Origin: Sphagnum magellanicum
Lineage: Eukaryota; Streptophyta; Sphagnopsida; Sphagnales; Sphagnaceae
Direction of reading: 5' to 3'
Length of the DNA stretch: 64,000 nt
Assembly (NCBI GenBank): GCA_021904315.1
Contig: CM038910.1
Coordinates: 26,174,256-26,238,255 of the forward strand
A program made the translations under genes and the position numbers. Numbering within the stretch: position 1 is the first letter of the stretch; every line of letters starts with the position of its first letter. The notes beneath the pieces are model-generated. The model made no database searches. It was given only the letters and a program-made list of their open reading frames with translations, and was not told the DNA's origin. Positions 6,701 to 36,409 of the stretch are shown here, one piece after another.

Positions 6701-9110
6701 CAATAGTTTCCCAATTACTCCAAGTACATCAAACATTTCTTGTGGACGACAAAAGAGTTTCCCAATTACTTCAAGTACATCAAACGTTTTTCTTCACATG
6801 TTTTTTTTTAATGGATGTACTTTGGCGTGCCAAATCATCTACAATGCGAAACCAAACAATAGTATTTGGTAAATATATTAACCTCTTAAGTGCTTTGATT
6901 TATAAAAAGTGATTTTTGAATAGGTTAATTTTCTTTCATCAAATCAAAAATAATCTTTTCATAAATGCATGAAGTATATTAATCATTTTTTGTTGCACAC
7001 AATTTATTGTGGAAGGTCATTGGTTTTGACCTTCAACCTAGGTTGCTAAACAACAGAAGGATACTCCTTGGTAAATAGATCAAACTTTAAGTATTCCCAT
7101 TTTAAATGAATTCAACAATTCCCTTTGATAAAGCAAAAATTCAAGGCATGTCAGATTTGACATTCATGGTTTTAGAACATATATAACCTAACTAGTCAAA
7201 TACATATGGCATATTCATAACCCAAGGTAAACCTGTTAATTATTAACTATTATCTTTCACCGAAAAAAAACTCTGCAAAGACTCAATAAGAAAGGAACTT
7301 TGGCCTCAACAATATTGGGGATAGAGAAAGAAAATTATATGTTATTTGATGTCAATTCTAAACCCCTTTGATCACTCCTAACATGATAATGGGGTTACAA
7401 TTCTAGGTTAAATGCCTTGTCGAGGTCTCCTAATTGTTCAAGAATTAATTCTTGTTTTCTTATATAACGCAGAAGAGGAAATTGAAGGAGAATCCAACGA
7501 AAAAAATAAGGTGTTGGAACAAACTCCGGTGGTTTTAATTGGGAAGTATATGGATCTCCTTCATTCGGGTGATTCCAATTTTGAGCTCTTGATCCATATC
7601 AAATTTACAATTACTCAAGCAATTGATAAGAGGAACTGCGACTATGTTCTTGAACATACATCTTTATTGGAAAAGATTGACAATATGGTGCTTCTTGAGG
7701 TGGGCCATAACCTAAAATGGGGTCTAGCTTTATTGGAACTGTTTAAATCATCAACAGCCAAGAAGGCAATTGCTAATTATCCAAGATTTTTGGAATCACT
7801 CATCAATGAATTCTACAATTCAATGTCACATGATATTGGGGGGTGCGAACTTGATATTGTATGTTTATTATGTGGTTTAGCTGAAATAACAACGGTGGCC
7901 ATGAAATTGGTAACATCCCCATCAAATTTTATTCCAAAGCTACTCGAATTAATAAGCATACGAGCTACAGATGTTGACTTATACAAATTCCCCAACTACA
8001 GATATTTTGGAGAGTTGCTGAAGTTGGTGGGAATGCTTTCAAGAGTTGTGTCTCAGATAGATGACAACATCACTAGAAGTGTTTTTGCTTCTGCTCCTGA
8101 GATTTTGGAGAGGCTTTTGGAGAAGCTTTTATTAGATGCCAATGTCTCTTTGACTACAGAAGATTTAAAGTCTACGATTAAGGCCCTCACTTTAATTGAC
8201 CCCATCAAAGGCAATGGTTTCACCATAAATTTGACATCACCAGATTTGTTTGAGGCAAGAGGAGAGGCCAATCTCGTTTTGGGATTACACAAAGAAGCAC
8301 TTGCAGATTTTGAAGCAGCTCTCAACTATTGTGAAAATGATAAATGGAAACAAAAAACCTGTATTTTAAGGTGAGTGTGTGTAGTGTTGCAAATTTTCAT
8401 ATCACATTTTATTTTGATTTATTTATGTATTTCTTGATTTGATCATGTATTACACAATTGTAGTTGAAAAAAATGTTGTGTTATTTTATTTGACTTTCTT
8501 TTGTAACGTTTTATTAGATTTTTGAAGGGGTAGAGGACTATAAGGTATTTGAAAATGTGGACAAATAGATTCAAGAAGATGGATATTAAATAATGATTCT
8601 ACTAGAAAGGAAAAAAGCGTTATTGAAATGGAAATGGTAAACTAGAAAAGAATTATGTCCAATTTGTTGTATAATTTGTACTCTTGTTGTTTAATAGTTC
8701 CATGTAGTATATCTAAGGGAATGTATTGTTTTGACAGGTGTGTGTTTTGCAAAGCTAAATTGGAAAACTATAAGGCTGCACTTCATGATGCAGACAATGT
8801 GGTCACAAATTTTGAAAAATCCCCTGCCACTTTGCAAGAAAGAGGAGTGGTGAAAGAGATGATGGGAGATTATGAAGGAGCAATAGAGGATTTGACCAAA
8901 GCACTATGTGAAGGTGGCCCAGATTATGAGTGCTTGAAGCATCGAGCATATGCACGTTTCAAGTTGGGATTGGAAATAGAAGCCCGCCAAGATGCAGAGA
9001 TGGCAAACCAATTAGGTGTGCCAGATTATGTTGAGAAGAACATGGTTAGGGGTACGATGTTCCTTGGAATTCTACCAGTACCTGAATTTTTAGGCTATAA
9101 GCTCACATAA
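3755..9110 (+). CDS. NB-ARC / TPR immune-receptor-like protein, copy A
   Basis: Five exons: 3,755-4,810; 5,119-5,934; 6,661-6,868; 7,473-8,370; 8,738-9,110 (1,116 aa). Introns are GT-AG and phases agree (0, 0, 1, 2). The start has good context (ATAATGG). Residues 1-150 are helical and charged. NB-ARC: P-loop GEAGSGKT at 181-188, kinase-2 LIVFDNV near 281-287 with Asp285, RNBS-B TSR at 309-311, GLPL-like GYNLLALAL at 363-371. A winged-helix region runs to about 515, but the MHD position reads LNP (501-503). Exon 4 (about 694-950) is all-helical, ARM-like, and residues 950-1,090 form three or four TPRs. No LRR, TIR or membrane segment is seen. By family this is a STAND ATPase/NLR acting in the cytosol; ligand and partners are unknown. 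The paralogue lies 27 kb downstream. Confidence 0.88.
6691..6792 (+). repeat. In-frame 51-bp tandem duplication inside exon 3 of gene A
   Basis: Two adjacent 51-bp units start at 6,691 and 6,742. They add 17 residues (VDD..VSQLLQVHQTF twice) without breaking the frame. Copy B has a single unit, so its exon 3 is 157 bp against 208 bp here. Confidence 0.9.
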
Positions 9111-9299
9111 TTTGTCTATAAGTTTGATTTTTTTACCCATGACTGCAAGGTTTTCAAATTCATGTCATGGCTTAGGAGTCTATTTTTTCCTTCAAGTTGT
9201 CTTTTGCAAACTCTTGCAGCAAGGACCAAATCTTGAAAACCTAACATCAATTCCTTTCTAACTTTTTTTTGCACCCATGCATGCCCACCTAGAATTTAT

Positions 9300-9560
9300 A
9301 TTGTAAATATTATATTGGGGTTGAGGAAGGCCTAAGGGGGCTATAGGGTTATAAGGTTTAGGAAGCTATGACTATTGGGCTATATTAGGCTATTAATCTA
9401 AATGATCTATATGACTATATTGGTTATATGGTCTATGGGTTATATGACTATTTGACCTATGGGCAATATGGCTATGGGCTCTAGACTGGATGACATTATG
9501 GCCTAAGGGTTATATGGTTATAGGTTAATGAGACTACATGCTATGGGTTTAAGGTTTTGA
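9300..9560. repeat. Degenerate GGCTATATG/ATGGGTTATATG-type low-complexity tract
   Basis: Just 3' of gene A there is a run of short purine/pyrimidine words (CTATATGACTAT, TATGGGCTATAT and variants). It carries no open frame. The same tract follows gene B at about 36,410-36,640. Confidence 0.7.
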
Positions 9561-9990
9561 GTTTTTGGTTTTAGCATTTCATTTAGGGTTTGCGTTTGGT
9601 TTTTCATTAAATTTTAGGTTTAACTTTTGGGGTTTATAATTCAGTTTTTTAAATTTGGGTTTGGTCTTTTTGAAGATTAGGTTTTACGATTTATTTTCTA
9701 AGGTTTAGGCCTTGGAAATTTTGAATTTATTTTTAAGGTTTATGTTTGCTATTTTTAGGGTTTCAATTTTCGAATTAACTTTCGAGGTTTAGGATTTGAA
9801 GTTTTAGGTTTTACATTTTAAAATTGTGTTTAAGATCTAAAGTTAACATTTAGGGTTTGAAATTTAGGGTTTAAAGTTGATTTAGGGTTTAGGTTAAAAA
9901 TTCAAGGTTTTAGGATTTGGATTTAAAGTTTGAAATTAAGCATTAAGATTTTCAGGTCTAAAATTTAAAATTTGTGGTTTGTGGACTTGA
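9560..9990. repeat. Degenerate interstitial TTTAGGG-like tract, copy A
   Basis: Many imperfect copies of TTTAGGGTTT, GGTTTAGG and TTAGGTTT occur in succession, all G-rich on the + strand. The plant telomere repeat is TTTAGGG. This looks like an old, decayed interstitial telomere-like array or a simple repeat that converged on that motif. No gene is seen here. Confidence 0.6.
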
Positions 9991-10019
9991 AAGAAACTTT
10001 AAACAATTTATAAAAAAGT

Positions 10020-13000
10020 TTGATTGCACAAACCCAATGTTTTCACATTAAATTACTAATTATGGGTCTATAATTGCTTTAACTTTTGCTCTAAAGTTTT
10101 CTTCTAAAATTATGTATCATAAATTTTTAGTCATCTTCAAATTCAAATTTATAATTTTTATTTTGTTCCCCCTTTCATAGTCAAATTTTTGCCTTTGGCC
10201 ATGTTTGAAACTTTCAAGCCACTAAGATCACTTGTTTCACTTTCCCCCCTAGGAACTGAGCAAATTCCATCTTCTTTGGATTCACCCATTATCCTTCACC
10301 TTTTTTAGAAGTTTGACGATGTTCCACCCAAGTCCAAAATTATTCAACTTTCTTTTGGAAATTGGAAAAAGTTCAATCTTTTATAAGTTATCAAACTTCA
10401 CAAGGCCACTTTATTTCCTAGCACACTTCCCTTATAAAGTTCATCCACTATCCCACTTCCCCTACAAAGTTCAAGTAACTTCCCAAACTTTCATTACCCT
10501 ATTTTTTCTAGTCAAATTTCCAAAATTCATCCATCGTCCCACTTCTGTCAAGAAGTTGACACAATTTTTTGCCTTAAGTTCATCCATTGTCTCATTTCCC
10601 ACAGAAACGAAAGTGAAAACAATTTCTTTCTTTGAGTTCATCCATCAGGCCATTTCTTTATATGTTTATTCATTGTCCAACTTTCCAAAAAATATAAAAG
10701 TATTGTACACAAGTTGGAAACTAAATAAAATTCCAAGTGAAGATGAATAAGTGATAAAATGGTTTTTCTCTTATTTGAATTTCAATCCTTTGATTTAAGG
10801 GGTTAATCTTAAAGGAATATATTGCAATAATGGATTTGTTTTAATAACTATTTTTTTGGTGTGGCCAATTTTTTCATCCTAGTGACCTCAAAAATTAAAA
10901 GAAGAATATTGTCACAAAATCCATGTAGTTGCAATTTTCACCATATTTCAACTACATTTATAGTTTGGGGCAATTTTTTTGCTAGTTTTCTACTATTTGG
11001 ACACTTTTTCAAAACCTATCACCAATTAATGCTAAATCTTTCTTGGGATGCTCACTAATGGTGCTACTTCATAAAAAGTGAAAAAGAAAAAAGAATTAAA
11101 TTACACAATCTTTAATAAAATATATTCCATTTTACAAACATCGTAATACCTTGGCACCTTCGACACAAATTATATATACATTACAAATGTTGAGATTCTC
11201 AAATATTATGTTTTTCAAAGAACAAATTTGTGTAAAGGAAAATGAAAAATATTTTGGAATATTAAAAACAAAAATTGAAATGGAATCTTCAAAATTCATT
11301 GATTATTCAATAGACATGTGTTGCAGTTGTCTTTATAGAGTGGTAGTCATAATTTGATCATGGCATCAAATATAGTAAAGGGTTTATTTTTACTTTTTAT
11401 TGAGCATTATTAGTGACATAGCTAAACTCATGTACCTTTTGCATTGAAAACTAAAATATGTTCTTTGATCATCATTAATGTTGTGGATGATATCCAACAA
11501 CACCAACATACATTGTAAAATATATATTATGATTCTTACATTGAATAAGAAAAGGTTATGGTATTTCATTGGTTAGTTCCTGTAACTTCATTCATTATTC
11601 ATGGATGCTAATCTATTTTACATCCATAATGGATGAACATCAGCAATCATTTTTTGATTCATCAAAATGCGTAAGCTTCAAAAATCATTTTTCATATTCA
11701 TCCATTTTGTCCAATGAATGAAACTGATATCTCATCATTTTCTTTCCATCCAAAATAGTTAGTTTAGAAATTAGTTTTCAAAGTTCATTGGAATTAGTTC
11801 CCAATAAGGACAATCCCCCTTATTACATTTAGTTTCTTTAGCACTAATTATGACCTTGCACCCATAGTCTTATTCATTCCATTCTTATTCCCATTTTTCA
11901 TGTTATGAATTAAATGCTTTTTCTTTTTCTTGGGCTAGCTCTCACATCCTTGTTCATGTTCATTATCTATTTTCTAAGGTTGGAACATATTTTTAGTCCT
12001 ATTTGTAGGTTGTCATACATATTATGCCGATTTAGAATTATGATTGTGGTTTTTTTTCATATTGTGACATTTGAGAAAAAATTCATTTTAGGCTTGCACA
12101 TATTATTGTTTAAAGTCATGTTTGCATGAAAAAATGTAGTTGCTTCCATGGCAAGGAAATACTTGTTGCTCTTAACGATATGCAACAAGAAAATTGAATT
12201 TATCCTAACATGGCCTTGACATCGCTTGCACCATTGTTATAATGTCAATGTGCATTGTTGAATGATTTCCAAGCAATTCTTGTTAAGTGCAACACCACCT
12301 TTGGAAATTCAAACAAAAAATTGCATGTCCACTATTAACCTAAATTGTTTCACCAAGGTTCATGCCTAGTAGCTACCATTGTTGTGTAATTTTATACAGA
12401 ACCATAAGTTTTAGGCTTTTAATTATTTTAGAATCAAAGAACAATCATTTTCAGTTTTTCGAAAAATCTAAATCAAAGAACCATCAATCTTGATTTTTTT
12501 AATTTAATTTTTTTAATAAATGACTATTAGTTTTTATGAAAAACTTGATAATGAATTAATAGTTTTATGGTTGGTTATTTGACTTTCTTAAAAACGAGAA
12601 CCATGGGTTATATACCAAGATTTGGTCTTTTAATTTTTTCAAAACCACATTTTTGAATCCTAGAAATTGCATTGATGAATTCTAGGAGTTTGTGTGTGTT
12701 TCTAACAATTGTCCAACATTAGGAGGTACATATGCCTAAGCTAGACTTAAGAAATTGGTAGATGATATTTGTGTGGGTGAGGTTGCATTCATGAATCAAT
12801 TTCAATTTGGATTATTTGGTTATATCATTTGAATGTTCAAATGTTACTCTTGTTTTCTCCCGATTAATTAATGATATTTTTAATATCAAATTTGTTCAAA
12901 TAAGTATAGGATGGCTTTGATAATCTTTTATGGAATGTTTCTTGTTCCATATTGGTGTTCGTCAATAACCGACCTAGCACATGAAAATTTGTTATATTAA

Positions 13001-13930
13001 ATTAACTTTGTCTTGGAATAACTTCAAATCCAGTTTGAACATTAAAATGTGGAAACCTATTATTTATGTCACCAAGAAATCCAATCGGATTCCATTGAAG
13101 CATTTAAACACATCAAATTTTCATTAATAGAACAATTAAAACATTAAGCATTATGTAATAACATTGGAGGTAATATGTTTCATGCAAGAGTATTTCACCT
13201 TGTCAAACTTGTTAACAATTCAAAATATCAATAACATTTTGTAATAAATCTTCAAACATTTTTTTTACAATCATGAAAAAATATAAAACAAAATAGAAAA
13301 ACAGTTTGTTGGGGAAATGCTAAATGGCATTGGGTGTAAGAAATATACAAAACACATCATTCCCAAATCCCTACAAGGCATAAAAATGGATGCATATCAC
13401 TTCACTTGGATTGAAGAAGTATTTCTTTTTGGCTTAATGTTGATTGATCTTCTCCTAGATTATAACATAAAACTTCCCTTGTCATTTGATTTTGATTTAA
13501 ACATCAAGCTACCCTTAGTATGTTGACTTAGTTGGTGACTTGGATTATTTGTAGCAAGTTTGGTTTGCAATGAGAGGAATGGGTAAAAAATTAAACAAGG
13601 ATGGGTTCCTAATTGTTCCAATTTGTTGTGATTGTATTGTTGGGGTTATTTTCCTTTTTAGAAAAGTAGGGGGAAAAATCATGAGAAAAGTGGTGGGGAA
13701 CTTTTATTGAAAAAAACTTTGAAGGGAAAATCTTGAATTGCATTTTTGCATAAACCCAATTTTAAAACTTGCTCCAACAAACATCAAATTACCATGATAT
13801 TGGGCAATTGGGTCCAAAATGAAAGTAAAACTTTGATCAAAATACTAGAGAATTGCAACATAAAATTCTGAATCCCATGCCTAGGTAGGTTGTGAGCTTC
13901 TTAGGTGTATAATGGAGGTCTATGCAAATA
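10020..13930. other. AT-rich intergenic DNA of copy A
   Basis: No gene is supported. At about 10,420-10,690 there are degenerate repeats built on CCACTTCCC and AAAGTTCATCCA, which create a spurious open frame. The rest is AT-rich with many short stops and is collinear with 37,150-41,030 in copy B. Confidence 0.6.
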
Positions 13931-13931
13931 G

Positions 13932-14117
13932 TTTGAGCTTTGTTTGGTCTAAGAATGGCAATCCAATATTAATTATGTTTAGTGGGCGTTGTGTTTGAGC
14001 TTTGTTTGCTTCTTGAATAACAATTTAACCTTGATAAGGCTAATTGAATGTTGTGTTTGAGTTTTGTTTGCTATAGGAATGACAATTTAATCTCAATTAA
14101 GTTAAGCGGGTGCTATT
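13932..14117. repeat. 62-bp tandem repeat, three copies (copy A)
   Basis: Units begin with TTTGAGCTTTGTTTG at 13,932, 13,994 and 14,056, period 62 bp, diverged from one another. The same three-unit array is present in copy B from about 41,032. Confidence 0.8.
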
Positions 14118-14149
14118 GCATATCCAAAATCTCTCCAAAGAGTGAGCTT

Positions 14150-15050
14150 GACCTCCAACAGATGAAAACAGTCCATGATATTGAAGAATGTATAATGTTA
14201 ACAAAGAATAATGGAAAAATTATCCTGAAAGGTCAAGTGCTACTATATTGCACAACCATCTTGAGGTAATCAAGACTTCAATGCTTTATGGACTCCGAAG
14301 CAAAGCTCCTACCAAATAGAAAGCTGACCTCTACTAGAACCTCTTGGGAAATTTTTTGTCCAAATGGCATTGGTTTGGTCATGGTCACTAATGATGAAAA
14401 ATGATGTGTTTCATGCATTGGAACACACACTTCTCTATTACATTCTCGAGAGCCTTCAAATGTGGGGCAAGCTATTGTTGACAGGAACAAACAATCCACA
14501 AAAGAATGAAAAAGGAATGTGCAAAATATGTAATGGGATGACCAAAATGCTACATCAGGTGAATATTTAACCATTTCTTTGAGTGCATGACAAATTCAAA
14601 CAAACACAAAGCTTTTTACAATCTCAATTTGGTATTGAGTCTCTCAGTGTCACTCCAAATTCACATACAAGTAGAGCAAATGTTCAGAGTACCTTTCTTT
14701 ATTTAGGCATGATAAAAATGTAGCCTTCAAACCCTTATCAAGGAAGGTTCAGTTTGGCAGAAAAACTTGGAAAGAAAGAGCATCCCTTGGATTGAATCAG
14801 TACAGGACTACTTCTTGTGGATTGCAAGAGTTCAACATAAAGACCCAATTATCTATTTGGGTCCACACCCAATTCTCCTTAGAGAATGGTTGCATGAAGC
14901 TGAACTAGGAGAGGCAGGGGTGAAGAAGCTTGATTCCAACTCAGCAATTGAAAATGTATTGGAGACAAAGAAGAACCTCATGGAGTTTGTGAGTCTCCAT
15001 GCAAGACCGTGGTCACAAAAGCAATTACCTTCTTTCAGTTGAACTAGCTG
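14150..15050 (+). mobile_element. Possible LINE remnant (RT zinc-binding tail), copy A
   Basis: Around 14,515-14,590 the + strand reads CKIC, a spacer, then (after a frameshift) NHFFEC. This resembles the C-x2-C...H-x4-C zinc-binding module at the end of plant LINE reverse transcriptases. Surrounding frames are broken by stops and shifts. The resemblance is short and judged by eye. The same relic is in copy B. Confidence 0.3.
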
Positions 15051-16023
15051 GGGCTTCACAGCTCTTCTTAAACCCCCAACCCGTGTTTTTTTTTTCCAAG
15101 TTTTAGATATGGAAAGTTTGGTGGAATTTAATAAAATATTAGCAAATTTAGTCAAATTTACACTAGAAAAAAAAATAATTCCCAATTTCTTTGTCTAAAA
15201 ATGACAAAATTTCACCAAAAAATAAAGCACCATCCCCAGCTCAAAGGCAGATAGGCTAACATACTTGAGGAGCTAATATGAAAAAATATCAAGCACCCAA
15301 TGCTCACCGAGCTGGAGTTTCTCACATTTATTTTGCTCAAGTTCTTGCTTTTTTTTCCACACCAAGAAAAGGCAAGAACTTCAGGGAAAAAAGTCCCTTT
15401 TATTTGTCCATCCTTGACACCAAGGATATAGGTCAGTGTCTTCGTGTCAAGGATCACCCAACAAAAATGGGGAGCAACTTGATTGTACTTTGGCTGTTTG
15501 TCCTCACTACAAGATAGCTTGGGTTCCTAACAAGTATACATATGAGATTGATCAAAATTCACCCCTTGGGCTTTGGGCTACAAGATTAGATACTTTCTCT
15601 AAACAAGAGTACAGAAGGTGAATTTGTCGGCCACTCCTCACCAAGGACTGCAATAGGAGAAAACCCTTCAAACCCTTTTAGATTCAAACACCTTGGATAC
15701 CTGGTTTCCTAGTTCACCTGTCATAAACTTGCCAGCGGGCATTCTGTTTTGTGCACAAGGTAGGCCTTCATGGTAAGGCCTCCTACTAATATTGCAAGAG
15801 GGCCCACTGTACAAGCCCGCCTTGATAATTACTTCCAGTAATGCCATGCAACAGGACATTATAATCCAGACCTTGGGCTCCACAGGCCTCAGTTCACAAG
15901 GTACAATGCTCTATGGCCATAGCATTACCCTACACAAAAGTTTGCAATGAGAAAAACCTGATCCCCGAAGCTCCATGAGCTTTTTCACATGTAGCACCAA
16001 AACCCTGATCCTTGAAGCTACAC
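15051..16023. other. Intergenic DNA without recognised gene
   Basis: Only short open frames with no recognisable family; collinear with 42,180-43,145 of copy B. Nothing else is seen. Confidence 0.5.
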
Positions 16024-16900
16024 CAGGCCTCATAAAATTTGGCATTCTACAAAAAAAATTTGGCATTGGCCAAAAATAAAAACTCAAAGTTGCCAAAATT
16101 AAGTGGGTATAAGTAGTAGTAGTTGTAGTAGTAGTAGTAATAATAGGCAAATAATCTTTGGATAGTTGGCCTACTGAGTACTCCTTAAGAGAGGGAGGGA
16201 TCTTTTTAGGTGTAGGAATCCTCACTCTCCTATGCCTAGTGACCTATGTAAGCATAGGCCTTGAGAATAGGCCTACTCCTTAAGAGAGGGAGGGATTTTT
16301 AGGTGTACAAAATCTTGCTCTCCTAGCCTAGTGACCTATGTAAGCTTAGGCTTTGAGAATAGGCCTACTCCTTAAGAGAGGGAGGAATCTTTAGGTGTAC
16401 ACATCCTTGCTCTCCTATGCCTAGTGACCTATGTAAGCATAGGCCTTGAGAATAGGCCTACTCCTTATGAAAGGGAAGGATCTTTAGGTATACACATCCT
16501 TGCTCTCCTATGCCTAGTGACCTATGTAAGCATAGGCCTTGAGAATAGGCCTACTCCTTAAGAGAGGGAGGGACCTTTAGGTGTACACATCCTTGCTCTC
16601 CTATGCCTAGTGACCTATGTAAGCTTAGGTCCATAATAGTATTTCCCTCATGGTTTATGATGCTCATGATGAAGGCCATTCCCAAAATGTCACGCCGGAT
16701 TCAACCTCACCCTAGGACTTAAAGGCCCTTTTCAAATGTCAAAACGCTGCAAACGATGGCGGCAACCCTTGAAATTCACTTTCTCACGTTAAAATACACA
16801 CACTGCCAATTTTGCCAAAATTACCCAAAGAAAGTTGCCAAAATTAAATTAATTTTGGCAAAGTTGGCATTTGCCACAAACTATGAGGTCTGAGCTACAC
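16016..16900. mobile_element. Non-autonomous hAT-type transposon with 8-bp target duplication
   Basis: The element spans 16,024-16,892 (869 bp) and is flanked by perfect 8-bp direct repeats AGCTACAC (16,016-16,023 and 16,893-16,900). Its ends are inverted repeats: CAGGCCTCATA on the left, CAGACCTCATA on the right read inward, one mismatch in 11. Subterminal TTTGGCA/TTGCCAAA motifs recur at both ends. There is no transposase frame. An 8-bp target duplication and CAG-type ends fit the hAT superfamily. Copy B has the empty site with one AGCTACAC at 43,138-43,145, so insertion followed duplication. Confidence 0.88.
16168..16632. repeat. 93-bp minisatellite inside the hAT element
   Basis: About five tandem units are marked by GAATAGGCCTACTCCTTA at 16,264, 16,357, 16,450 and 16,543, an exact 93-bp period. 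A partial unit precedes them. A short AGT/TAG trinucleotide run lies just before, at about 16,115-16,147. Confidence 0.9.
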
Positions 16901-19000
16901 ACATCTTATTAACAGATGTCTGAAGACCAGCACCACCCATGTACTAGAGAAGAGGCATAGAAAGCCAATTCATGAATTTTATTTGGTAGTAGGCAAGTCA
17001 TTCAAAATCAAATGCAGGTAGTGACTCGAGAGCAGATAGGTTGCTAACTGAAGAAAAATTATTTGTCAGAATCAGCCTCAGCAGCCAATTCTGAGTTCAA
17101 AATACTAGCTGCAGGAGAGCTGAATAAGCCACCCCTGCTTGTTGATGTCCTATTGAGATATACAAGTGCACATAAATCTTCTTCATGTTTAATGTACCGG
17201 ACTGAAGATCCCACCCCTGCTCGAAGTGGGTGCATTTCAAATTTGTTGATGTCTCATTGAGATATACAAGCGTACCTAAATCTTTTTCATGTTTAATGTA
17301 ACTGACTAAAGATCATCACCAAATTTTGGAAAAACATTGTGGGAGCATTAACTCACATTCATCACATGCAAATGGCCTCATCTTATGCCACCACCTGCAT
17401 TGAAATTGCAAATAATGAGAAAAAAATCCAAAGAACCACCAATGTTATGTAATCAAAGCCTACTAAATAACAAATACAAGGACCACAAGGACTAGGTAGG
17501 AGCCATTAGCTAATCTGCCCAAAATTATCCTCTGTCATGAGAGCAAGCTTAACCACTCAGCTTACCCACTCATGTGCTTCCCATGACCTAATTTAGAGAC
17601 TGCTCCCCATGCTCCGTGCACTCATAAATTTGGCTCACATCTTGTACTTCAAACAACACACTTTGTGTACTAACACCACACTTTTAGGATGTTTCTTTTC
17701 TTTTGAAGCTGTGGGTGGGATGCAAGGAATGGAGAGGTACATTATTTTTCTTTTTGCGCATGTAATAAAAAATTTGTTAGTTTCATAACGAAACCTTCTT
17801 CAACTACCCCCGCATGTGGCATTCTGTGCATGGTGGGTGTTCAATTTCACAAAATTGGGGGGAACCCTGGTGGTAGCCAATAGTTCATAACCCATTAGCC
17901 ACCCAATTTCTGATGGGTTATGTATAGATTTGATTGACTGTGTATTTTGATGAGCTCAAAAAAAAAGCTTGGAAAACATGAAAGTGAGGTGAAAGAGTAG
18001 GTTGAAGAAAGCCCACATGGTTGGAAGGAGGCAATGGAAGAATTAAGATGTGAATGGAGAACCTAGGATTGTGAGAAATGAACCGTAATGAATAACATCC
18101 TTGTCTTATGACCAAATATTATTTAAAGGAAACGGCTACTCTCTACTCTTGATCACATAGGTTTCTAGAGGCCTGAAGAAGCTCAGAATGAGACCACTGC
18201 AAGTATTACCACCCAACTTTAGACGAACTCATATTGCTTGCATCTTTTGCAGCACTACCAAACAAATGTCAACTAAAGAAAGCCCACTAAACATCTGTAC
18301 TGAGAAATAATTTGTTAGTGCATTTGACATATGTTGAAGATTAACTAACCCAATTCAAGTGTGAAATCTATCAGCTTGCTTACACATGAAAAAATAGAAA
18401 ATAAATTGCTATGCACAACACAAAAACTTTGCAAAATTTCACAACTATCATCTTTCACACAAGAATTTTTCAAAAACCTCATTAGCGACACACACCAGCC
18501 TACAAATCTCCACTTTAAACTAGTGTAACAAGAATATAAGCAACCTCACCCTGCATGGGAATGCTGTCAAAAGGTGTGAGCAAATCTTCTTGGGTCTAGC
18601 CACACATAAACTAAACTTTCAACGTTGGCATTTGCTAGTTAATAAATTTTCAGTTCACACACCATTGGGGGAAAATAAAAAGCACAAGACAAATGCACAA
18701 AACAAAAAACTGTTGCATCTCTACACCACCACCACACTTAGTGGAGCTAATGCACAAAACAAAATACTCTTTTCCACATACACTGCCACACTAAGTCAAG
18801 CTAACGCTCAATGGATCAAGAGCTTGAGCAAAGAGCTGTGGGATATTAAACTTCCCTTATGTTCTTGATGATCTTATGGCTTTTGAGTCGTGAGAAAGTC
18901 TAGGGATTGGGTGACTCTAAAAAAGTCATCAGGCCTAATTTTGGGCCCAAAATCAGACTCAAAATCTGGTAAGGTTCCAATTAATTTTTTTGGCAGCACA
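16901..19000. other. Intergenic DNA of copy A with a 104-bp direct repeat
   Basis: No gene is supported. Two diverged copies of a 104-bp unit start with GTTGATGTC at 17,141 and 17,245. The same pair is at about 43,386-43,590 in copy B. Confidence 0.5.
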
Positions 19001-23775: not shown

Positions 23776-24110
23776 GAAGCCCTGGTACAAGGTAGAAGGA
23801 GTATTGACACATCTTACATCGCATCAAGTGAAATTAAAGCTCAAGGACATGGGATTTATTTGAATAAGAGCTGTCAACAACCCACCGATAATACTTGAAG
23901 CCCTGGTACAAGGCAGAGGGAGTATTGACACACCTTACATCGCATCAAGTGAAATTAAAGCTCAAGGACATGGGATTTATTTGAATAAGAGCTGTCAACA
24001 ATCCACCGATAATACTTGAAGCCCTGGTACAAGGCAGAGGGAGTATTGACACACCTTACATCGCATCAAGTGAAATTAAAGCTCAAGGACATGGGATTTA
24101 TTTGAATAAG
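23776..24110. repeat. 121-bp tandem repeat, about three units
   Basis: GAAGCCCTGGTACAAGG recurs at 23,776, 23,897 and 24,018 (period 121 bp). Each full unit ends in AACCCACCGATAATACTT, a variant of the core of the adjacent 45-bp unit. The longer unit therefore seems to have grown out of the shorter array. Confidence 0.9.
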
Positions 24111-25665: not shown

Positions 25666-26649
25666 TTAAGTTAAAGTGAGGATGATTTGATAACAATAAA
25701 AAATTTTGAGGTTACATTCCCTATGGATATGGGGGGCTAAACCATAAAGTTCAAATGTTTCATTTAAAACGCCTTTTAGAACATTACGTGGAATAATCAA
25801 ATAAAGTAAACCATGATCCAATAAAAAATCAAAAACTTCAAAATCATCAGGTATTTTTTGACATAATGTATGTTCAATCATTCTTTTACCTACAAATTCA
25901 ATATATGCTTTGGGTTCGACAATGGTGATATCCCTTGACATACTAAAATTAGTAATAACTCCGCCTATTGTAGGATATGTAAGAATAACTATATATAATT
26001 TTATTTTTTAAGCTTGATGAATTTGTAAGACAGAAAAAATTTTAGCCATTTGCATTAAACTCAAAGTCCCTTGCTACATACGTACTCCTCAAGACGAACA
26101 CATAATAATTAATGACATAGATTTTTTGGTAGCATATTTAGCAAGACCAGTAATTTTCTCACCCAATATAGAACCCATACTACCTCCCATAAATTGGAAA
26201 TCCATAATTCCAAGAGCAATAGGAATCTCATTTAATTTTCATGTACCCATTTGAATAACATTAGTCAAACCCTTTTTTTTTTGATAAAAAAATACAATTT
26301 TTGTCCGAATCTTCATGAGAAAATTTGAGAACATCTCAAACAATCATATTTTCATCCATAGGATGCCAAGTCCCATGATCAATTAAAAGTTCAATTCTTT
26401 CTATACTATTCATTTGCACTTGATATTCACACTCTTCACAAATACGTTTGTTTTGTTTCAAAAATCTGACATAAAACATGTTCTCACAATTCTCACATTA
26501 AATCCATAATCCTTAGTAGTATCAATTTTAATATATTTGTCTCTTTTTTTCTCTCTAAGAATATAACCCTTAGTAGTTTTTTTAATGAGGGCTTTGATTA
26601 ATCCACCAAATTGATGTTTATCTTCAAACCAATTCATCAAAAACATAAA
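25666..26649 (-). pseudogene. accD: accD pseudogene (plastid acetyl-CoA carboxylase beta subunit)
   Basis: Near full length but broken. The N-terminal part (26,646 downward) reads MNWFEDKHQFGGLI and KGYILREKKRDKYIKIDTTK, typical of bryophyte-type AccD. The middle, in shifted frames, reads [19 protein letters not shown] and [16 protein letters not shown], the carboxyltransferase core. The C-terminal part reads [16 protein letters not shown]. In the plastid, AccD is the carboxyltransferase beta subunit for fatty-acid synthesis. Here there are several stops and frameshifts, including one at a T-run near 26,271-26,280, so it is not functional. Confidence 0.9.
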
Positions 26650-26921
26650 CCTCTCATTTTATTTTTCATTTTCCTCTGCAATTGACTACAAAATTTGGAT
26701 ATGCGAAGGATGAAAAAAGAGGAAGATGAAAAATTAGATTTAAATTTTTTTTATTTAAATAAAACTTGATTCTTAATTCCATTTGTCAAATTGGGATTAA
26801 CTCCTCCCATTGATTTTATAATAGATCCTTCTTTTCTATTAAAACAATTCACAATTAGAAAAAAAAAAAGATAAAAGGGACTTAGATAGAAGATCAAAAT
26901 ATATTCCATTTTTTTTTCAAT

Positions 26922-26995
26922 GATTCAAAAGGGATTTGAGCCTTTGACTTCATGGTTTGGAACCATGGGCTTTAATCCACTGAACTACAAAACCC
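26922..26995 (-). pseudogene. trnR-CCG: Plastid trnR-CCG relic
   Basis: The minus strand gives a tRNA-sized sequence with a D-arm like GTAGTTCAGTGGATTAAAGC and an anticodon stem CATGG/CCATG around loop TTCCAAA. Its place between rbcL and accD identifies it as trnR-CCG. The anticodon is now CCA instead of CCG, a G-to-A change at a CpG, which would make it read as tryptophan. The T-arm is also degraded, so it is a relic. Confidence 0.75.
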
Positions 26996-27201
26996 AATTA
27001 AATGTAAAATCTATCAAAGTTTTTCTATTCCTTAATAGCTATTCCTTAGTACCGAGGGTTGACAAATTTTGGAAGAAATCAACAATCTATATGATTAGGA
27101 TATATAAAAACAAATTTATTTTGGTGATTTTGTCCATCCCCTTAGGGGGCTGGGGTAGATAGACAAAATCACTAAAATGAAATTGTGAAATATAAACTAT
27201 G

Positions 27202-28250
<1,049 letters not shown>

Positions 28251-29449
28251 TTTTCTTTTTCAGTATTTCAAAGAGAAAAGAAGTTTCCCAAAAGACAAGA
28301 ATCTTGAGTAAATAATCTGAAACTAAAAGATGCCTGAAGAGAACTCAAATACACTAAGCCTAGGCAGATGACAAACAAAGGACCCCAAGACTTGGTCCCC
28401 GCTCTTAGCTGGGTCATTTGTCTTCTTGGACATGGGTCCTTTCAAAATTTTCCTTGTATTTCCCCCTTTTTTGGTTGCTTTGGTTTATTTATGGTTGGTA
28501 GTGTTTCATCCTACAGATGAAATATGGATGGTAAGTGGTCTTTAAACAGTTTTCTCTTGGCTTCCAGTTAGCTCAGTTGCTGGTTTTACTACCTACTCAC
28601 TAATTAGTGAGTAAAGTTTTCACATGTTGCTGTTTTTATTACTACTTACATCTGTATGATACATAATATTTATACTAATCACGTATATATATGTGGGACT
28701 GACCTAATGCAGAATGGGTTACCAAGGTGAAACCAAATATTAACTCAGATGGGGTCCATTTACTACTGAGTCATAATGCGCATATAGTGGGTGGGCGCTG
28801 GTTCACTCTGGACCAGCCTGTGAGTGCTGTGTCTTTAGAAATCTTTTTTAATTGATGGATTGATTGGGATGGGGAGGGGGAGCTGTTTGTTTTTTTCCGC
28901 ATAACTTAGCTGAACAATAGGGCTCATCAGCCCTTTTTTTTTCTGGCGAAAACAATCAGGTGGCGAATTATTTTTTTTGTCTGGCAAATATTCTGGTGAT
29001 TTTTGGAGTCTTCCATCGGTAGAACTCCTATTACTATAGAACAAAAATCGCCAAATAGCGACCCCTTGTCAGCCACTTGTAGCCAGAATCATAGAAGGAC
29101 CATACCCATCTAGCTTAATATTTGAAAAGTAATTTCAGATTTAGCTAAATATTCCTCCGGACGATCGCCATGTCACCTGGATCATCCAAGTGAATGTCGC
29201 AACTCCAGCGCTTTACAAAATTTTTAAAAAAACGGCCTGACGCTCATCATCAGGCTCAGGGTCCGCAACCAATACAACCGTTTCACGCAAAACTGACTGC
29301 ATTTAATTGAAGTGTTAATAGACTAGTCAGGTACATTTACAGCTACTAAGTAGTAAGTAGTGAGTATGGCATAAATGATGCCGTACGCGGCCCATAAGGA
29401 ACTGTCTGAAAGCGCTTCGTGCAGTACGAATTTTCCCGCGCATGACTCA

Positions 29450-29823
29450 TGAGGTATTTCTTTAAAGCAAAAGATAGTTGAGGGTTGCTCACGCGTTATT
29501 GGAGATCGAGTTTCTAATTTCCAAGCTCTGTTTCTTCCTATTTGCGCGTCTCTTTGCGACGAGTTGGGTGCTGCGCTCGTGGCGTTTGATATCGTGAGCA
29601 CGGATTTGAGTATCTGGTTTCAGGCACAGTCATCTGCAGGGCAGCATCAAAGGGGTTTTGACGTCCAGTGCATCCAGTGCTTACTGCGAATTTGGTGCAG
29701 GGCAGCAGCTTAGTTTGGAGGGAGTTTGATTTGAGGGCATCAGGGAAACGAGCTGCTTGACCTTGCCACGTGCTCAACGTTTCTGCAGAGGAAAAATATC
29801 GAACATTTCAATTCCAAGACAAG
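29450..29823 (+). promoter_or_regulatory. Putative 5' leader exon of NB-ARC/TPR gene B
   Basis: Counterpart of 2,340-2,707. It ends in CAAG followed by a GTAATA donor at 29,824. Just upstream copy B has about 70 bp (roughly 29,372-29,440) that copy A lacks, so the two promoters may differ. Leader status is inferred from conservation and the donor site. Confidence 0.35.
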
Positions 29824-30874
29824 GTAATATAATTCCAGCGCAACCTATAACATGTGTATATTTATGATGCATGTTTCCATATAACACTGGTTTTATTCGT
29901 CTCAGATTGGCATATGAATATTTCCTAATTTGATTCAACTCATGACCAAAAAACGCCAGTTGCACCCGGAAAGAGCACTGGACTGTCTAAAGAGAGGAAC
30001 ACTACGCACATGTTCTTAGTCTTGTCTTGTCTTGTCTTGTCTTGATACCAATGAAAATTTCTTGTTCGGTTGTACTTCATCTAGTTGGCGGAAAGAGTTA
30101 CAGTTGATAGAAACCTTGACGTATTTGACCAGTGCCAAAGCACGGTCAACAAAAACTCAGCTCCTCCAGAGCAACAGTGACCAAAAACATTGTGCTTCAA
30201 AATTGAGAAATCCCTTATTTGCTTCATATCAATGTAAAACATTTCTTTGGTGTGAAGTTTTGTTTGCAGATGCAATTCCCTGATTTTTTCCTTCTGAAGA
30301 TGCACTCTGGTGCAACAAATGCTAGGAACAATCAGGTTATCCATGGGTGTGCACGTTAGTTATCAAAAGAGAAAATACCCCTATAAGGATCATATTAACT
30401 TACTATCCTATCGGATATCCTATTCGCTTCTGCAAATTGATAAAACAGCTACCTCCTTGAATGATTGTACTAGCAGGACGTTGACATGGAAGCTATTAAG
30501 TTTATAGCTTCTGAGATTTGCCAATAAAACATTTATAAAGTCTTTAGCCCATTAAATACATGTATCCAAATGTACTCATTTAATCTGGAGTTCTCGAAGT
30601 ATGTGCGACTAAACTTGTGATATCCTCACATTGAACATTCAAGGACAGTTCAACTCAAGTATGTACTAGAAAAATTTGACTTCTATCTTAATGTCTTTCA
30701 TTGAAATTCGTGGGCCACATTTTTGAAACATTCCTAAATATTTCATGTCTTTGTTGCTGCATTATTTTTAAGAGCATACCTTCCAAATCCAGACTATATG
30801 GAATACAAGCCATAGACAAGAATATAATCAATAATGGATCACTGTATGGTCATGGGTGAAATAGGTGATACATA

Positions 30875-33800
30875 ATGGCGGAGTTACCTATTGCAAGCAA
30901 TGCTCTCACATTGGCAGGACAGATTGGCAATTACTTACAAGGATATCGCGAAAGGTGGAATCGAACATCGAAAGCAATTTCGGACTTCGAGCGCTTTCAT
31001 CATCAGCTAGCGACCAAGAAGGCAGAATGGGAACAAATGTTAAACGACTATGGTTTGCCGAACGATCAGGGCCTTCGAACACGGTTTGAGACTGCCTCAC
31101 AACACCTTGACGAGGAAAGGCAGAGATTTAGCCACTTGCAAACTGACTGTTGCCTGTCATTTTGGACCAAAGCTGCTTTATTGTCTCGCGAAATATTGAC
31201 AGATTCCATCGACAGGCTAATCGATGATTTTGAACAAATACCAAATTTCTTGAGAACTCGAGAAGATATGACTCGAATGCTTGCAAGCAGAGCCAATGAC
31301 ACTCCGGATTCCTTAGGCTTCGGATTGGATCCACGAATCGTCAGGTTGGAAGAGATCGAAGCTAAAGTGATGAAGGAACTTACTCCTGAAGCTAACAATA
31401 AAGTTGTGAATCTGTATGGAGAACCTGGATCGGGAAAAACTTGCCTTGCAAAATCTATTGCATATCAAATTCATGATGCTGCAAATAATATGAGAAGCTC
31501 AAAATCGTCGTCAACCCACACATCGATCAACGAAAACAACACAATGTTCCAGGATGGGGCGGTGTTTTTGACGTGTGACCCTGAAGCCAAGGACTGTGGA
31601 AAGTTGTGTGGTGAGATCCTAGCCAAAATAAGAGCACCAGGTCAAGACGCATGTGTAGACAAGGAATTGTCTGAAAAGTTGCGAGCAATGCGGAACCGTC
31701 TACGGACAAAACACGTCCTTATCGTGTTCGACAACGTCGTGAATTTGGAACAAATCAAGGATCTTTTAGTGTTTGAAGCCACAGGGGTGCAATACCTCGT
31801 GACATCTCGATCTAAGGAAGTATGGCCGGAAGCAAAGTGTGTACTCATGGATAAGCCTACTATAAGGGAGGCACGCAAGATCTTGGCCAGAAGGGCTAAA
31901 ATGCCAACTGATGAAATACCACCAAACCTACTTGTAAGTGCTTCCAAGCTATATTGTTGTTGATTTCAGTTGCGTTGGAGATTTGGTAGGGAGGCTATGT
32001 TCTAATGAGCATCTACTGGCTATTAAAGTCAAGATGCTTGCAACATCCTTTTTTTTAGAATCTTGGCTAAGTACTTGACTTGACTGTCACATGTTGAAGA
32101 TGTGACCTGATGCTTCGTAAAATGGGTATTTGTGGTTCATTTTTCCAAATAAGTTTAGGTTGCCACATTTTAATTGTGGACATTCTAACGTACTAAACAC
32201 ATAAACATTTGCTATGGATGGGTGGTATTTATTTTATGCAGCGGTTAGTCTATAGACTCATCGACCGAGTTGGATACAACCTTTTGGCTCTCGCACTCAT
32301 ATTGAAGACAATGAAAGATCCACTTCAAGAAGAATATTGGGAGCTTGCGCTTGAAGATTTCAATAGCATTGCTGATGATGCATCTCTCGTTCATACAAGA
32401 CCTGTCGAAGCATTTGGTGAACCATATCCTCATACCTTGTCTGTTGCAATGTTAATGGCATTAGAAGGTTTACATGATAAGGCTCGAGACCTTTTGTATT
32501 TGCTTGCACTATTTGGAGGCCATGGTGTGCCAGAACCATTGTTACGACTCGCTTTCAGAGCAAGTCATCCAAACCTTTTACCTGGTGACTTTGTGAGAGC
32601 AAGGGATGAATTGGAAGAGCTTGATTTGATCCAGGTAGAGTGTCGTATTGATCGTATTGACCATTTTACGAGGCGGACATGTGTGTTGAACCCTACTCGT
32701 CGACTTTTGATTCGCAAGAAGAAGCAAGGGGAGGTCAGTGCAAAGCTTGTTGCATTATTGAACAACAGTGCCTTTAAAGAGGGCAACAAGGACATAGATG
32801 CTCTATTAGCAGTCCTTTGTTTATTTTACATTGTTCAGCTTTCGGGAACGCATGCGGATGAAAATAAATTCTTAACAGAAGAAGCGGCCAAGAAGATGGA
32901 GGAGGCAAGAAAGGTTTTGAAGTTGAAACCCTTCACGGATGAATCTGGAAGGCTCTACTCCGAACTAATTTCGGTTATAAAACCTTTAATCCATCTATTG
33001 AATTTGTCAAAGAAAGGTGAAGGGTGGGAGCTAGAATGTCAAGAATCAGCAAGGAAGGTATGTTTATTAACCGTTAATGTGGCCATGTTAATACAATTGT
33101 CTATTATTTTGTTTTCAGTTCTTCCATCCCATTTAATTTCAAATTTGTGACAACACATTGTTCATGGCATCATAGACCTATCTAGAAATTGATGGTCAGC
33201 GCATCCTGCATAATTTGATAAAATATTTATGGTTTAGACTTTTGATTCTTAAATATTAAAACTTACAAGATGTAGCGGGTTAGGTGCAGTTTGCAAACTA
33301 AAACAATTAGTTCATTTACACTTTTGAAGAAATGTATTTGGAACGTTTATTTCTTTCCTACATATGTTCCCAAAAGTTCTAAGAATAAGTTTGTTCAAAA
33401 CTTTCCATTCTTAATATCTTTGCAAATAAAGTTTAGGGGATCATATAGCCAACGTAAACCTATTAATCCAGCTTGATGGTTCAACATTTATAGCATTAGA
33501 TCCTATATATTAAATGTTTAACATAACTTTGGAACATATGAACAGGATAGGTTTATCAATGAGTCTTAAACGTTGAAACATGACAAAACTTAATAGGCTA
33601 GCTACATATTCCAAACCAAACAAAACAGGTCATTTAAATGTTTCAAGAATGTATTTGGAATATTTATTTACTTCACAAATGTTCACAAAATTTTGTAAAA
33701 GTAAAATTGGAGTACATTTGTTAGACAACTTTTCATTACTAATATAGTTGCAATTAAAACTCAATTGCTTTACTTGTTGGCAGGTGATCATGAAATACAT

Positions 33801-36212
33801 TCAAAAAGGTCATGTGGACGACAAAATAGTTTCCCAATTACTCCAAGTACATCAAACATTTTTTGTCACATTTGACTTTTTATCGAATATAAGTTGGCAT
33901 CCCAATTCATCTACAATGACAGACCAAACAATAGTCTTTGGTAAATATATGAACCTCTTAAGTGCTTTGATTTATAAAAAGTGATTTTTGTATAGGTTAA
34001 TTTTCTTTCATCAAATCAAAAAGAATCTTTTCATAAATGCATCAAGTATATTAATCATTATTTGTTGCACACAATTTATTGTGGAAGGTCATTGGTTTTG
34101 ACCTTTAACCTAGGTTGCTAAACAATAGAAGGATACTCCTTGGTAAATAGATCAAACTTTAAATATTCTCATTTTAAATGAATTCAACAATTTCCTTTGA
34201 TAAAGTAAAAATTCAAGGCATGTCAGATTTGACATTTATGGTTTTAGAACATATATAACCTAACTAGTCAAATACATATGGCATATTCATAACCGAAGGT
34301 AAACCTGATAATTATTAACTTTTACCCTTCATCGAAAAAAAAACTCTGCAAAGACTCAATAAGAAAGGAACTTTGACCTCAACAATATTGGGGATAGAGA
34401 AAGAAAATTATAAGCTATTTGATGTCAATTCTAAACCCCTTTGATCACTCCTAACATGATAATGGGGTTACAATTCTAGGTTAAAAGCCTTGCCGAGGTC
34501 TCCTAGTTGTTCAAGAATTAATGGTGTTTGCAATTCTTGTTTTCTTATATAACGCAGAAGAGGAAATTGAAGGAGAATCCAACGAAAAAAATAATGTGTT
34601 GGAACAAACTCCGGTGGTTTTAATTGGGAAGTATATGGATCTCCTTCAGTCGGATGATTCCAATCTCGAGATCTTAAGCTATATCAATATTACAATTTCC
34701 AACATAGTTAATAAGAGGAACTGTGACTATGTTCTCGAACATACGTCTTTATTGGAGAAGATTCGCAATATGACGCTTCTTGAGGTTGGCCATAACCTAA
34801 AACAGGGTTTGGTTTTATTGAAACTGTTTAAATCATCAACAGCCAGGAAGACAATTGCCAATTATCCAAGAGTTTTGGAATCACTCATCAATGAAGTCTA
34901 CAATTCAACCTCACATGATATACGGGAGCGCGATATTGATATTGTATGTTTATTATGTAGTTTAGCTAAAATAACAACGGTGGCGATGAAATTAATATCA
35001 TCCCCATCAAATTTTATTCCAAAGCTACTCAAATTAATAACCGCACGACTTTCTACAGATGTTGACTTGGACATATTCCCCAAAAACAGATATTTTGGAA
35101 AGCTGCTGAACTTTGTGGAAAAGCTCTCAAGAGTTGTGTCTAAGATAGATGACAACATGACTAGAAGTGTTTTTGCTTCTGCTCCTGAGATTTTGGAGAG
35201 GCTTTTGGAGAAGCTTTTATTAGACGCCAATGTTTTTTTGACTACAGAAGAACAACAGTCTACAATTAAGGCCCTCACTTTAATTGACCACATCAAAGGC
35301 AATGGTTTCACCATAAATTTGACATCACCAAATTTGTTTGAGGCAAGAGGAGAGGCCAATCTCATTTTGGGATTACACAAAGAAGCACTTGCAAATTTTG
35401 AAGTAGCTCTCAAATATTGTGAAAATGATAAAGAGAAAGAGAGAACCCGTATGTTAAGGTGAGTGTGTGTAATGTTGCAGATTTGCATATCCCATTCTAT
35501 TTATATTTATTTATGTATTTCTTGATTTGATCATGTATTACACAATTGTAGTTGAAAAAAATGTTGTGTTATTTTATTTGACTTTCTTTTGTAATGTATT
35601 ATTAGATTCTTGGAGGGGTGAGGACTATGAGATAGTTGAAAATGTGGACAAATAGATTCAAAAAGATGGATATTAAAGAATCATTCTACTAGAAAAGAAA
35701 AAAGGGTTATTGAAATGGAAATGGTAAACTAGAAAAGAATTATGTCAAAGTTGTTGTATAATTTGTACACTTCTTGTGTAATAGTTCCATGTTGTATATC
35801 TAAGGGAATGTATTGTTTTGACAGGTGTGTGTTTTGCAAAATTAAGTTGGAAAACTATAAGGGTGCACTTCATGATGCGGACAATGTGGTCACAAATTTT
35901 GTCACAAAATTTGAAGAATCAGCTCTGAGTTTTCAAGAAAGAGGAGTGGTGAAAGAAATGATGGGAGACTATGAAGGAGCAATAGAGGATTTGACCCAAG
36001 CACTCAAGGGTTATGGTGGTCTAGACTATGAGTGCTTGAAGCATCGAGCATATGCACGTTTCAAGTTGGGATTGGAAATAGAAGCCCGCCAAGATGCAGA
36101 GATGGCAAACCAGTTAGGTGTGTCAGATGATGTTGAGAAATGCATGGTTAGGGGTGAGATGTGCCTTGGAATTCTACCAGTACCTGAATTTTTAGGCTAT
36201 AAGCTCACATAG
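30875..36212 (+). CDS. NB-ARC / TPR immune-receptor-like protein, copy B
   Basis: Five exons: 30,875-31,933; 32,242-33,057; 33,784-33,940; 34,558-35,458; 35,825-36,212 (1,106 aa). Splice sites and phases match copy A. The P-loop is GEPGSGKT, kinase-2 LIVFDNV, RNBS-B TSR and GLPL-like GYNLLALAL; MHD is again LNP. The helical exon-4 region and three or four C-terminal TPRs follow. Exon 3 lacks the 17-residue repeat of copy A. Exon 4 is one codon longer, exon 5 five codons longer. All frames are open, so both paralogues look functional. The encoded protein is an NLR/STAND-type ATPase by motifs; immune function is inferred from the family. Confidence 0.88.
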
Positions 36213-36409
36213 TTTGTTTATAAGTTTGATTTTTTTACCCATGACTGCAAGGTTTTCAAATTCATGTCATGGCTTAGGAGTCTATTATTTCCTTCAAGTT
36301 GTCTTTTGCAAACTCTTACAGCAAGGACCAAATCTTGAAAACCTAACATCAACTCCTTTCTAACTTCTTTTTAGACCCATGCATGCCCACCTAGAATTTA
36401 TATTGGGGT

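Follow-up and report, generated by a model that had tools for sequence, protein, structure and literature searches.

Organization of the locus

The window analyzed here, 64,000 nt of Sphagnum magellanicum contig CM038910.1, contains two genes, A and B, that are tandem copies in units of ~26.5 kb. Five-exon models of both genes were rebuilt with GT..AG introns and gave intact reading frames of 1116 (A) and 1106 (B) residues. The features discussed below are:

1..19147, unstranded: portion of tandem unit A within the window (the unit starts ~4.9 kb before it)
3755..4810, + strand: copy A exon 1, N-terminal region and NB-ARC (PF00931 match, 3.4e-13 over exons 1-2)
5119..5934, + strand: copy A exon 2, end of NB-ARC and the region after it
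6661..6868, + strand: copy A exon 3, with 51 bases more than its counterparts in B and E and a divergent patch at 6797-6851
6869..7472, + strand: copy A intron 3, a low-divergence neighbor (4.0% vs B)
7473..8370, + strand: copy A exon 4, predicted helical region and first putative TPR, with a divergent stretch at about 7568-8040
8371..8737, + strand: copy A intron 4 (6.8% vs B)
8738..9110, + strand: copy A exon 5, putative TPR and stop
19148..45686, unstranded: tandem unit B, which holds gene B
30875..31933, + strand: copy B exon 1
32242..33057, + strand: copy B exon 2
33784..33940, + strand: copy B exon 3
34558..35458, + strand: copy B exon 4
35825..36212, + strand: copy B exon 5

A search of the genome (439 Mb) revealed three copies beyond A and B, all on the same contig: two are full copies (C and E), and the truncated copy D comprises exons 4-5 only. 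A decayed relative of exon 1 (36% identical, 12 stops) was considered as a root for the copies and rejected as too distant.

The NB-ARC match over exons 1-2 (49.9 bits) passes the curated cut-off of 23.5. By their predicted domains, the A and B products are plant NLR-like proteins in the broad sense of NB-ARC switch proteins, and their order would be N-terminal region, NB-ARC nucleotide switch, helical region, and TPR-like repeats. The N-terminal region yielded no Pfam match above cut-off, coiled-coil included; a TIR match was not found, nor was an ARM match after NB-ARC. With an E threshold of 1, no LRR family matched exons 1-2 and 4-5 of copy A or exon 4 of A and B, and the C-terminal leucine-rich repeats that mark a plant NLR in the strict sense appear to be missing from the exons scanned (1-2 and 4-5 of A). 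TPR_1 (26.7 bits, cut-off 27.8) and TPR_2 (26.0 bits, cut-off 27) fall just under their curated cut-offs, and the best match to TPR chains in the PDB is at 9.7e-4. AlphaFold models of exon 4 are all helix, with a pLDDT of 45 (two rows) or 40 (five rows) that is too poor for site mapping. ARM/HEAT repeats, proposed from a ~38-residue spacing of the fastest codons, were rejected since the autocorrelation has no peak there. Among the literature matches listed, titles and abstract openings do not name the family.

Divergence between copies A and B

Of the first 205 residues of exon 4, 48 differ between A and B, as compared to 15/272 in exon 2 and 35/352 in exon 1; introns 1-4 diverge by 4.2, 5.2, 4.0, and 6.8%. 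These values confirm the residue counts of a sequence-only reading of this DNA, which had described exon 4 as hypervariable relative to its neighbors. The description holds against exons 1 and 2 and the introns, but exons 3 and 5 are also raised: residues differ at 14/52 aligned positions in exon 3, 15/95 in the rest of exon 4, and 16/123 in exon 5, and bases differ at 16/55 positions in the exon 3 patch and at 8.9% in exon 5. The densest 475-base window in 13,599 aligned bases lies at 7564-8038 and has 69 differences, with a permutation maximum of 51 (n = 2000). The rise starts at ~7568-7580, ~100 bases into exon 4, whose first 108 bases differ at only 4 positions.

Some noncoding DNA is also divergent. 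Intergenic positions 12515-12914 differ by 10.8%, and the left outer parts of the unit by 8.5% and about 12%, values that resemble those of exons 3-5 and exceed the core; the right outer part is not raised (4.5 and 5.7%). Differences between A and B occur in short clusters, noncoding DNA included. HMM states on the A-B track split into very short patches, and we therefore do not give exact tract borders.

Silent and replacement changes rise together

The sequence-only reading had counted about 10 silent changes in exon 4, far outnumbered by replacements. The Nei-Gojobori count in the 205 codons is 17.5 (14 purely silent codons), and the ratio of 54.5 replacement to 17.5 silent changes is close to the site ratio of 482:133. 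The check set beforehand, a higher dN/dS in exon 4, failed: A-B values are 0.85 in exon 4, 0.86 in exon 2, and 0.90 in exon 1. Exons 4 and 2 have equal dN/dS because silent divergence rises as well; dS is 0.145 in the first 205 exon 4 codons and 0.028 in exon 2, a 5.2-fold difference, and relative to exon 1 the increase is 2.6-fold. Pooled over copies, exon 4 has a dN/dS of 0.92 (0.66-1.33) and exons 1+2 one of 1.10 (0.78-1.64). Gene-wide, dN/dS between A and B is near 1. A model in which divergence varies by region under a common dN/dS is preferred over the converse (AIC 10808.5 vs 10826.7), and omega differences added to it bring no improvement (p = 0.87); the two-copy interval for omega of exon 4a, 0.69-1.91, leaves room for a moderate excess. 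Across 27 windows, silent rate and amino-acid change correlate with a Spearman coefficient of 0.80.

Across the copies, divergence in exons 3-5 is ~2-3 times the level seen in exons 1-2 and in the flanking introns, and this holds for silent as well as replacement positions. In 6/6 pairs that have both regions, exon 4 exceeds exons 1+2 in dS. The middle of exon 4 is above both flanking introns in 10/10 pairs, narrowly so over intron 4 in A-D (8.5 vs 8.3) and C-D (6.1 vs 5.8). Pooled silent divergence is 0.105 in exons 3-5, 0.099 in exon 4, 0.038 in exons 1-2, and 0.048 in introns 3-4; at silent third positions without CpG the values are 0.085, 0.077, 0.026, and 0.044. The silent comparison in codons with unchanged neighbors gives 7/100 for exon 4a vs 10/485 (p = 0.015), and at non-CpG four-fold sites the silent excess shrinks to 37/854 vs 32/1211 pair comparisons. 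Silent codons cluster to a modest degree (p = 0.37, 0.041, and 0.016 for three window sizes). The depth is uneven among pairs: exon 3 differs by 1.3% between B and E (17.1 and 26.2 Mb) and by 12.7% between A and each of B, C, and E, and exon 5 is shallow in A-C (4.0%) and C-E (4.5%). One noncoding window, with no protein to select on, has a mean divergence of 9.6%.

Probable exchange among the copies

Whether exon 4 came from another paralogue by gene conversion had been raised by the earlier reading; exchange inside exon 4 is indicated, but the data single out no particular donor. Among the 36 informative sites of exon 4, 339/630 pairs are incompatible and at most 15 sites fit one tree. The best tree leaves 21 of the 36 misfitting, a number reached in none of 3000 exchange-free simulations (3 x 1000). 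Like splits cluster (p = 0.0008), and merging of sites within 12 bases abolishes the significance (p = 0.38); exchange tracts would thus be very short, with multi-base mutation as an alternative. Outside exons 3-5, divergence is overdispersed in 6/6 pairs (variance/mean 1.8-2.7). Long identical tracts are significant in 2/6 pairs (B-C and C-E) and borderline in B-E; all lie in exons 1-2, and constraint may contribute to them. The average recombination rate of Sphagnum is described as 10 times that of vascular plants (PMC9946827).

Site classes and helix-face spacing

Diversifying selection on exon 4, as proposed earlier, finds partial support: a site-class test assigns ~8% of its codons to a repeatedly replaced class, but exons 1+2 carry the same signal. 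For exon 4, M2a vs M1a gives a 2dlnL of about 44.4-44.6; the maximum over 21 simulated patchwork nulls is 28.7, and the null values may be slightly low as the simulated fits used fewer starting points than the real-data fits. Exons 1+2 reach 53.4, and both signals are lost once codons with multi-base differences are removed. Such codons number 35/299 in exon 4, and 22-45 in simulations without multi-base mutation. Exon 4 includes replaced codons with four states among the five copies. Variable exon 4 residues have helix-face spacing (p = 0.0006, with lags picked after viewing the autocorrelation) that silent changes in this exon do not show (p = 0.74). The spacing is absent in exons 2 and 5, yet exon 1 has it equally (p = 0.0006), and we rejected it as an exon 4-specific feature. 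Sparing of hydrophobic residues is not significant (p = 0.61 and p = 0.075). Some codons along the entire protein seem to be repeatedly replaced. Selection confined to exon 4 is unsupported because exons 1+2 share the site-class signal, exon 1 shares the spacing, and the signals vanish without multi-base codons; diversification over the whole protein is possible.

Origin of the divergent exons

The joint rise of silent and protein-changing differences makes old variation that is kept and reshuffled likelier than fast evolution of the exon 4 protein. We assign a probability of roughly 0.45 to a reading in which exchange among copies of this NB-ARC receptor-like family homogenizes most of the unit and older variants persist in exons 3-5 in short patches. 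Non-allelic gene conversion or unequal exchange would keep introns, exons 1-2, and most intergenic DNA alike, and the older variants would last in exons 3-5, shuffled among copies as short tracts. Their persistence would most likely come from selection favoring divergence among copies in their C-terminal helical/TPR part, which we infer from five copies in one genome. By analogy to plant NLRs, this part may recognize something, with NB-ARC as the putative switch.

Alternatively, the 4-5% of the core could reflect how old the copies really are, with exons 3-5 imported from more diverged copies or alleles outside the assembly, or from cDNA; donor introns that have ceased to match would explain why the imports are confined to exons. 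We regard this as unlikely. Silent sites of exons 3-5 do exceed the flanking introns, exon 4 sites conflict with any single tree, and copy D shows that fragments exist; however, the genome-wide search found no more diverged exon 4 donor among its five matches (all at least 79% identical, the lowest at 79%), the rise begins within exon 4, and the left outer parts of the unit are as diverged as exons 3-5, so the deep level requires no import. Faster mutation in exons 3-5, by methylated CpG or multi-base events under little selection, would explain short clusters that include noncoding DNA, the portion of the silent excess at CpG, and the location of the site-class signal in multi-base codons. 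It is quite improbable, as the silent excess persists without CpG, multi-base codons are within the simulated range, and introns 3 and 4, which lie between the raised exons, are not raised.

Positive selection on exon 4 specifically, with replacements above the silent rate and a candidate ligand-sensing surface, would fit the site-class test, the four-state codons, and the helix-face spacing, but dN/dS no higher than in exons 1-2, equally raised silent sites, and the matching signal in exons 1+2 make it very doubtful. A dN/dS near 1 across the gene would also fit a relaxation of constraint on exon 4 or the decay of one of the copies, yet relaxation cannot raise silent divergence; furthermore, both frames are intact, coding indels are all in frame (5/5 a multiple of 3 vs 8/34 in noncoding DNA, p = 0.002), and there are no stops vs about 11 expected without constraint. 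We consider this explanation highly improbable.

Comparison with known systems

Many replacements in an exon tempt one to conclude that positive selection acts on it, an inference that does not follow here; the sharper pattern is a rise in silent divergence that affects exons 3-5 and leaves out the intervening introns. Should selection be what spares these exons, a non-LRR plant NB-ARC protein would have its variable recognition part in the helical/TPR region. More tentatively than the preferred reading above, we suggest that this moss receptor could be an MHC-like store of old variants, in which exchange erases differences in introns and the switch domain, selection keeps and reshuffles the helical/TPR exons, and a non-LRR surface serves for recognition. 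HLA-DRB1 exon 2 is variable and carries old silent variation, next to introns that are less diverged. Silent divergence of the moss exon 4 is similarly above that of its flanking introns (0.099 vs 0.048), although HLA variants are alleles of a vertebrate locus and the moss genes are plant paralogues from one genome.

In Arabidopsis RPP8, paralogues are reported to exchange sequence mostly in the exon for the C-terminal recognition part, where amino-acid diversity is extreme and yet Ka/Ks is 0.75-0.97 (PMC6771003). The moss genes resemble RPP8 as there described in paralogue exchange and conflicting trees inside a variable exon; they differ in that RPP8 diversity lies in LRRs and was seen in many accessions, whereas the moss genes have no detected LRR and are five copies in one genome. 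Plant NB-ARC proteins with other C-terminal repeats have been described (PMC11218826), among them CC-NB-ARM proteins such as rice RLS1 and TIR-NB-TPR proteins (PMC12512272), as well as NB-TPR and NB-armadillo proteins (PMC7145615). Set against these descriptions, the moss proteins differ in having neither a TIR nor an ARM match and TPR scores just below cut-off; putative helical repeats in place of LRRs after NB-ARC would be a feature they have in common with all of these proteins.

Gene models and tandem duplication

Two NB-ARC receptor-like genes, A and B, were rebuilt from the sequence with five exons each and frames intact in both. Exons 1-2 match NB-ARC (Pfam, 3.4e-13) and exons 4-5 give TPR matches slightly under the cut-off; no LRR family was matched in the parts of the protein scanned, exons 1-2 and 4-5. 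A search of the genome (438,994,042 bases, 31 contigs) finds exon 4 five times, every copy on contig C4, exon 2 four times, and exon 1 four times together with one decayed relative.

Copies of the gene on contig C4
A: 26.2 Mb; exon 4 at window 7473-8370; 1116 residues, coding sequence 3351 bases
B: 26.2 Mb; exon 4 at window 34558-35458; 1106 residues, coding sequence 3321 bases
C: 7.638 Mb; complete, open frame
D: 7.627 Mb (C4:7625837-7629736, locus L003), minus strand; exons 4-5, open frame
E: 17.141 Mb; complete, open frame
Distant relative of exon 1, decayed: C4:22957600-22958550 (locus L023), minus strand; 36 % identical, 12 stop codons

In copy D, exon 3 is reduced to its last 20 bases and exons 1-2 are missing. 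Exon 3 of copy A (6661-6868) exceeds that of B and E by 51 bases and that of C by 66. Codons 329-353 of copy A (4739-4810 plus 5119-5121, NB-ARC part) form a cluster in which several positions carry a different residue in nearly every copy.

Window positions 2315-16023 and 29431-43145 match at 92.8 %, and 5118-9993 of L014, the sequence preceding the window, matches 19158-24420. The arrangement is a tandem duplication: units of ~26.5 kb that meet at ~19147. The end of unit A (about 18900-19147) is sequence that in unit B (45432-47567) runs on into the gene of a TrkH-family cation transporter (PF02386, 2.5e-35, 46485-47564); the duplication thus cut this gene short in unit A, where its truncated start remains at 19147. 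Unit A stretch 16024-16892, with a tandem repeat of roughly 93-base period at 16179-16629, lacks a counterpart in B. An insert confined to unit B is probably organellar DNA transferred to the nucleus.

25503-28275: insert, ~2.8 kb
26921-26994, minus strand: tRNA-Trp(cca) gene
27580-28059, minus strand: degraded rbcL fragment (PF00016, 6.4e-50)

Silent and replacement divergence in exons 3-5

Exons 3-5 are deeply diverged at silent and replacement sites alike, and exons 1-2 and the introns only shallowly. The residue differences between A and B counted in the sequence-only reading are correct (48/205 in exon 4a, the first 205 codons of exon 4; 15/272 in exon 2; 35/352 in exon 1), and the exon 4 excess is not due to chance: the densest 475-base window, 7564-8038, holds 69 differences, against a permutation maximum of 51 (n=2000). 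A-B divergence climbs from ~100 bases inside exon 4 onward and is likewise raised in exon 5 and part of exon 3. An intergenic patch, 12515-12914, reaches 10.75 %, exceeding chance among noncoding windows.

Across ten pairs of copies, mid exon 4 diverges by 6.1-13.5 %, intron 3 by 2.6-6.3 % and intron 4 by 3.8-8.3 %; mid exon 4 exceeds both introns in 10/10 pairs, its margin over intron 4 being narrow in A-D and C-D. Exons 1 and 2 diverge by 2.5-5.0 % (six pairs possessing both), and exon 3 by 1.3 % in B-E and 12.7 % between A and each of B, C and E. When the four full copies are aligned, four windows of 300 bases overlap exon 4, with mean divergences of 8.4, 10.2, 7.8 and 8.8 %; 29 noncoding windows give 5.15 +/- 1.49 % (maximum 9.6 %).

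The proposal that replacement-driven selection shaped exon 4 is not borne out by A-B dN/dS (Nei-Gojobori), which is 0.85 in exon 4a (0.123/0.145), against 0.86 in exon 2 (0.024/0.028) and 0.90 in exon 1 (0.051/0.056); exon 5 gives 0.48 (0.076/0.157). Codon likelihood models fitted to A-B across six regions favor a shared omega with divergence varying by region (AIC 10808.5) over a shared divergence with omega varying by region (10826.7); letting omega vary as well in the former gives p = 0.87, and letting divergence vary as well in the latter p = 0.0012. The omega interval of exon 4a is wide, 0.69-1.91, and leaves room for a moderate excess. Purely silent codons make up 14 of 157 amino-acid-conserved codons in exon 4a vs 16 of 574 in exons 1-2 (p = 0.002). 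Pooled pN/pS is 0.042/0.038 = 1.10 (0.78-1.64) in exons 1+2, 0.090/0.099 = 0.92 (0.66-1.33) in exon 4 and 0.065/0.119 = 0.54 (0.32-0.94) in exon 5, with introns 3+4 at 0.048.

Excluding CpG contexts reduces the silent excess, which is still present. Silent divergence at non-CpG third positions is 0.077 in exon 4, 0.085 in exons 3-5 and 0.026 in exons 1-2, against 0.044 in introns 3-4 (bootstrap P for the excess over introns, 0.0155 in exon 4 and below 0.0005 in exons 3-5). At non-CpG four-fold sites the excess is smaller (37/854 pair comparisons in exon 4 vs 32/1211 in exons 1-2), which weakens the case.

Site classes and patchwork

Diversifying selection on the helical region of exon 4, proposed as the likely ligand-sensing surface, keeps part of its support. 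M2a improves on M1a there by 2dlnL = 44.6, beyond nulls simulated without positive selection (maximum 28.7 for patchwork, n=21; 2.1 for a single tree, n=7), and variable residues show helix-face spacing (p = 0.0006, lags picked after seeing the autocorrelation) absent from silent changes in exon 4 (p = 0.74). Yet exons 1+2 carry the same signal (53.4; patchwork null maximum 17.0, n=20), so repeated replacement would not be confined to exon 4; exon 5 gives 14.6. The helix-face spacing recurs in exon 1. Removing codons that differ at >=2 bases, which discards real selection targets as well, abolishes the signal in exon 4 (2dlnL 0.73, 264/299 codons kept) and exons 1+2 (1.02, 601/622 codons kept). 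Certain codons have likely been replaced repeatedly, spread along the protein.

The 36 informative sites of exon 4 fall into nine different splits, with at most 15 compatible with a single tree; a misfit of 21 sites never occurred in 3 x 1000 no-exchange simulations (maximum 17). Like splits adjoin more often than chance (p = 0.0008), a clustering no longer significant once those <=12 bases apart are merged (p = 0.38).

We favor, at a probability of roughly 0.45, an account in which exchange between copies would homogenize the core, while exons 3-5 would escape homogenization, possibly through selection, or be re-seeded. The left outer parts of the A/B tandem units diverge by 8.5 % and 11.6-12.6 %; the right outer part, at 4.5-5.7 %, shows no such rise, and low values occur in some exon pairs, two reasons for placing the account below even odds. 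A high recombination rate is documented for the genus Sphagnum, with 10-30 cM per Mb in S. angustifolium (PMC9946827). The closest documented case is RPP8 of Arabidopsis (PMC6771003).
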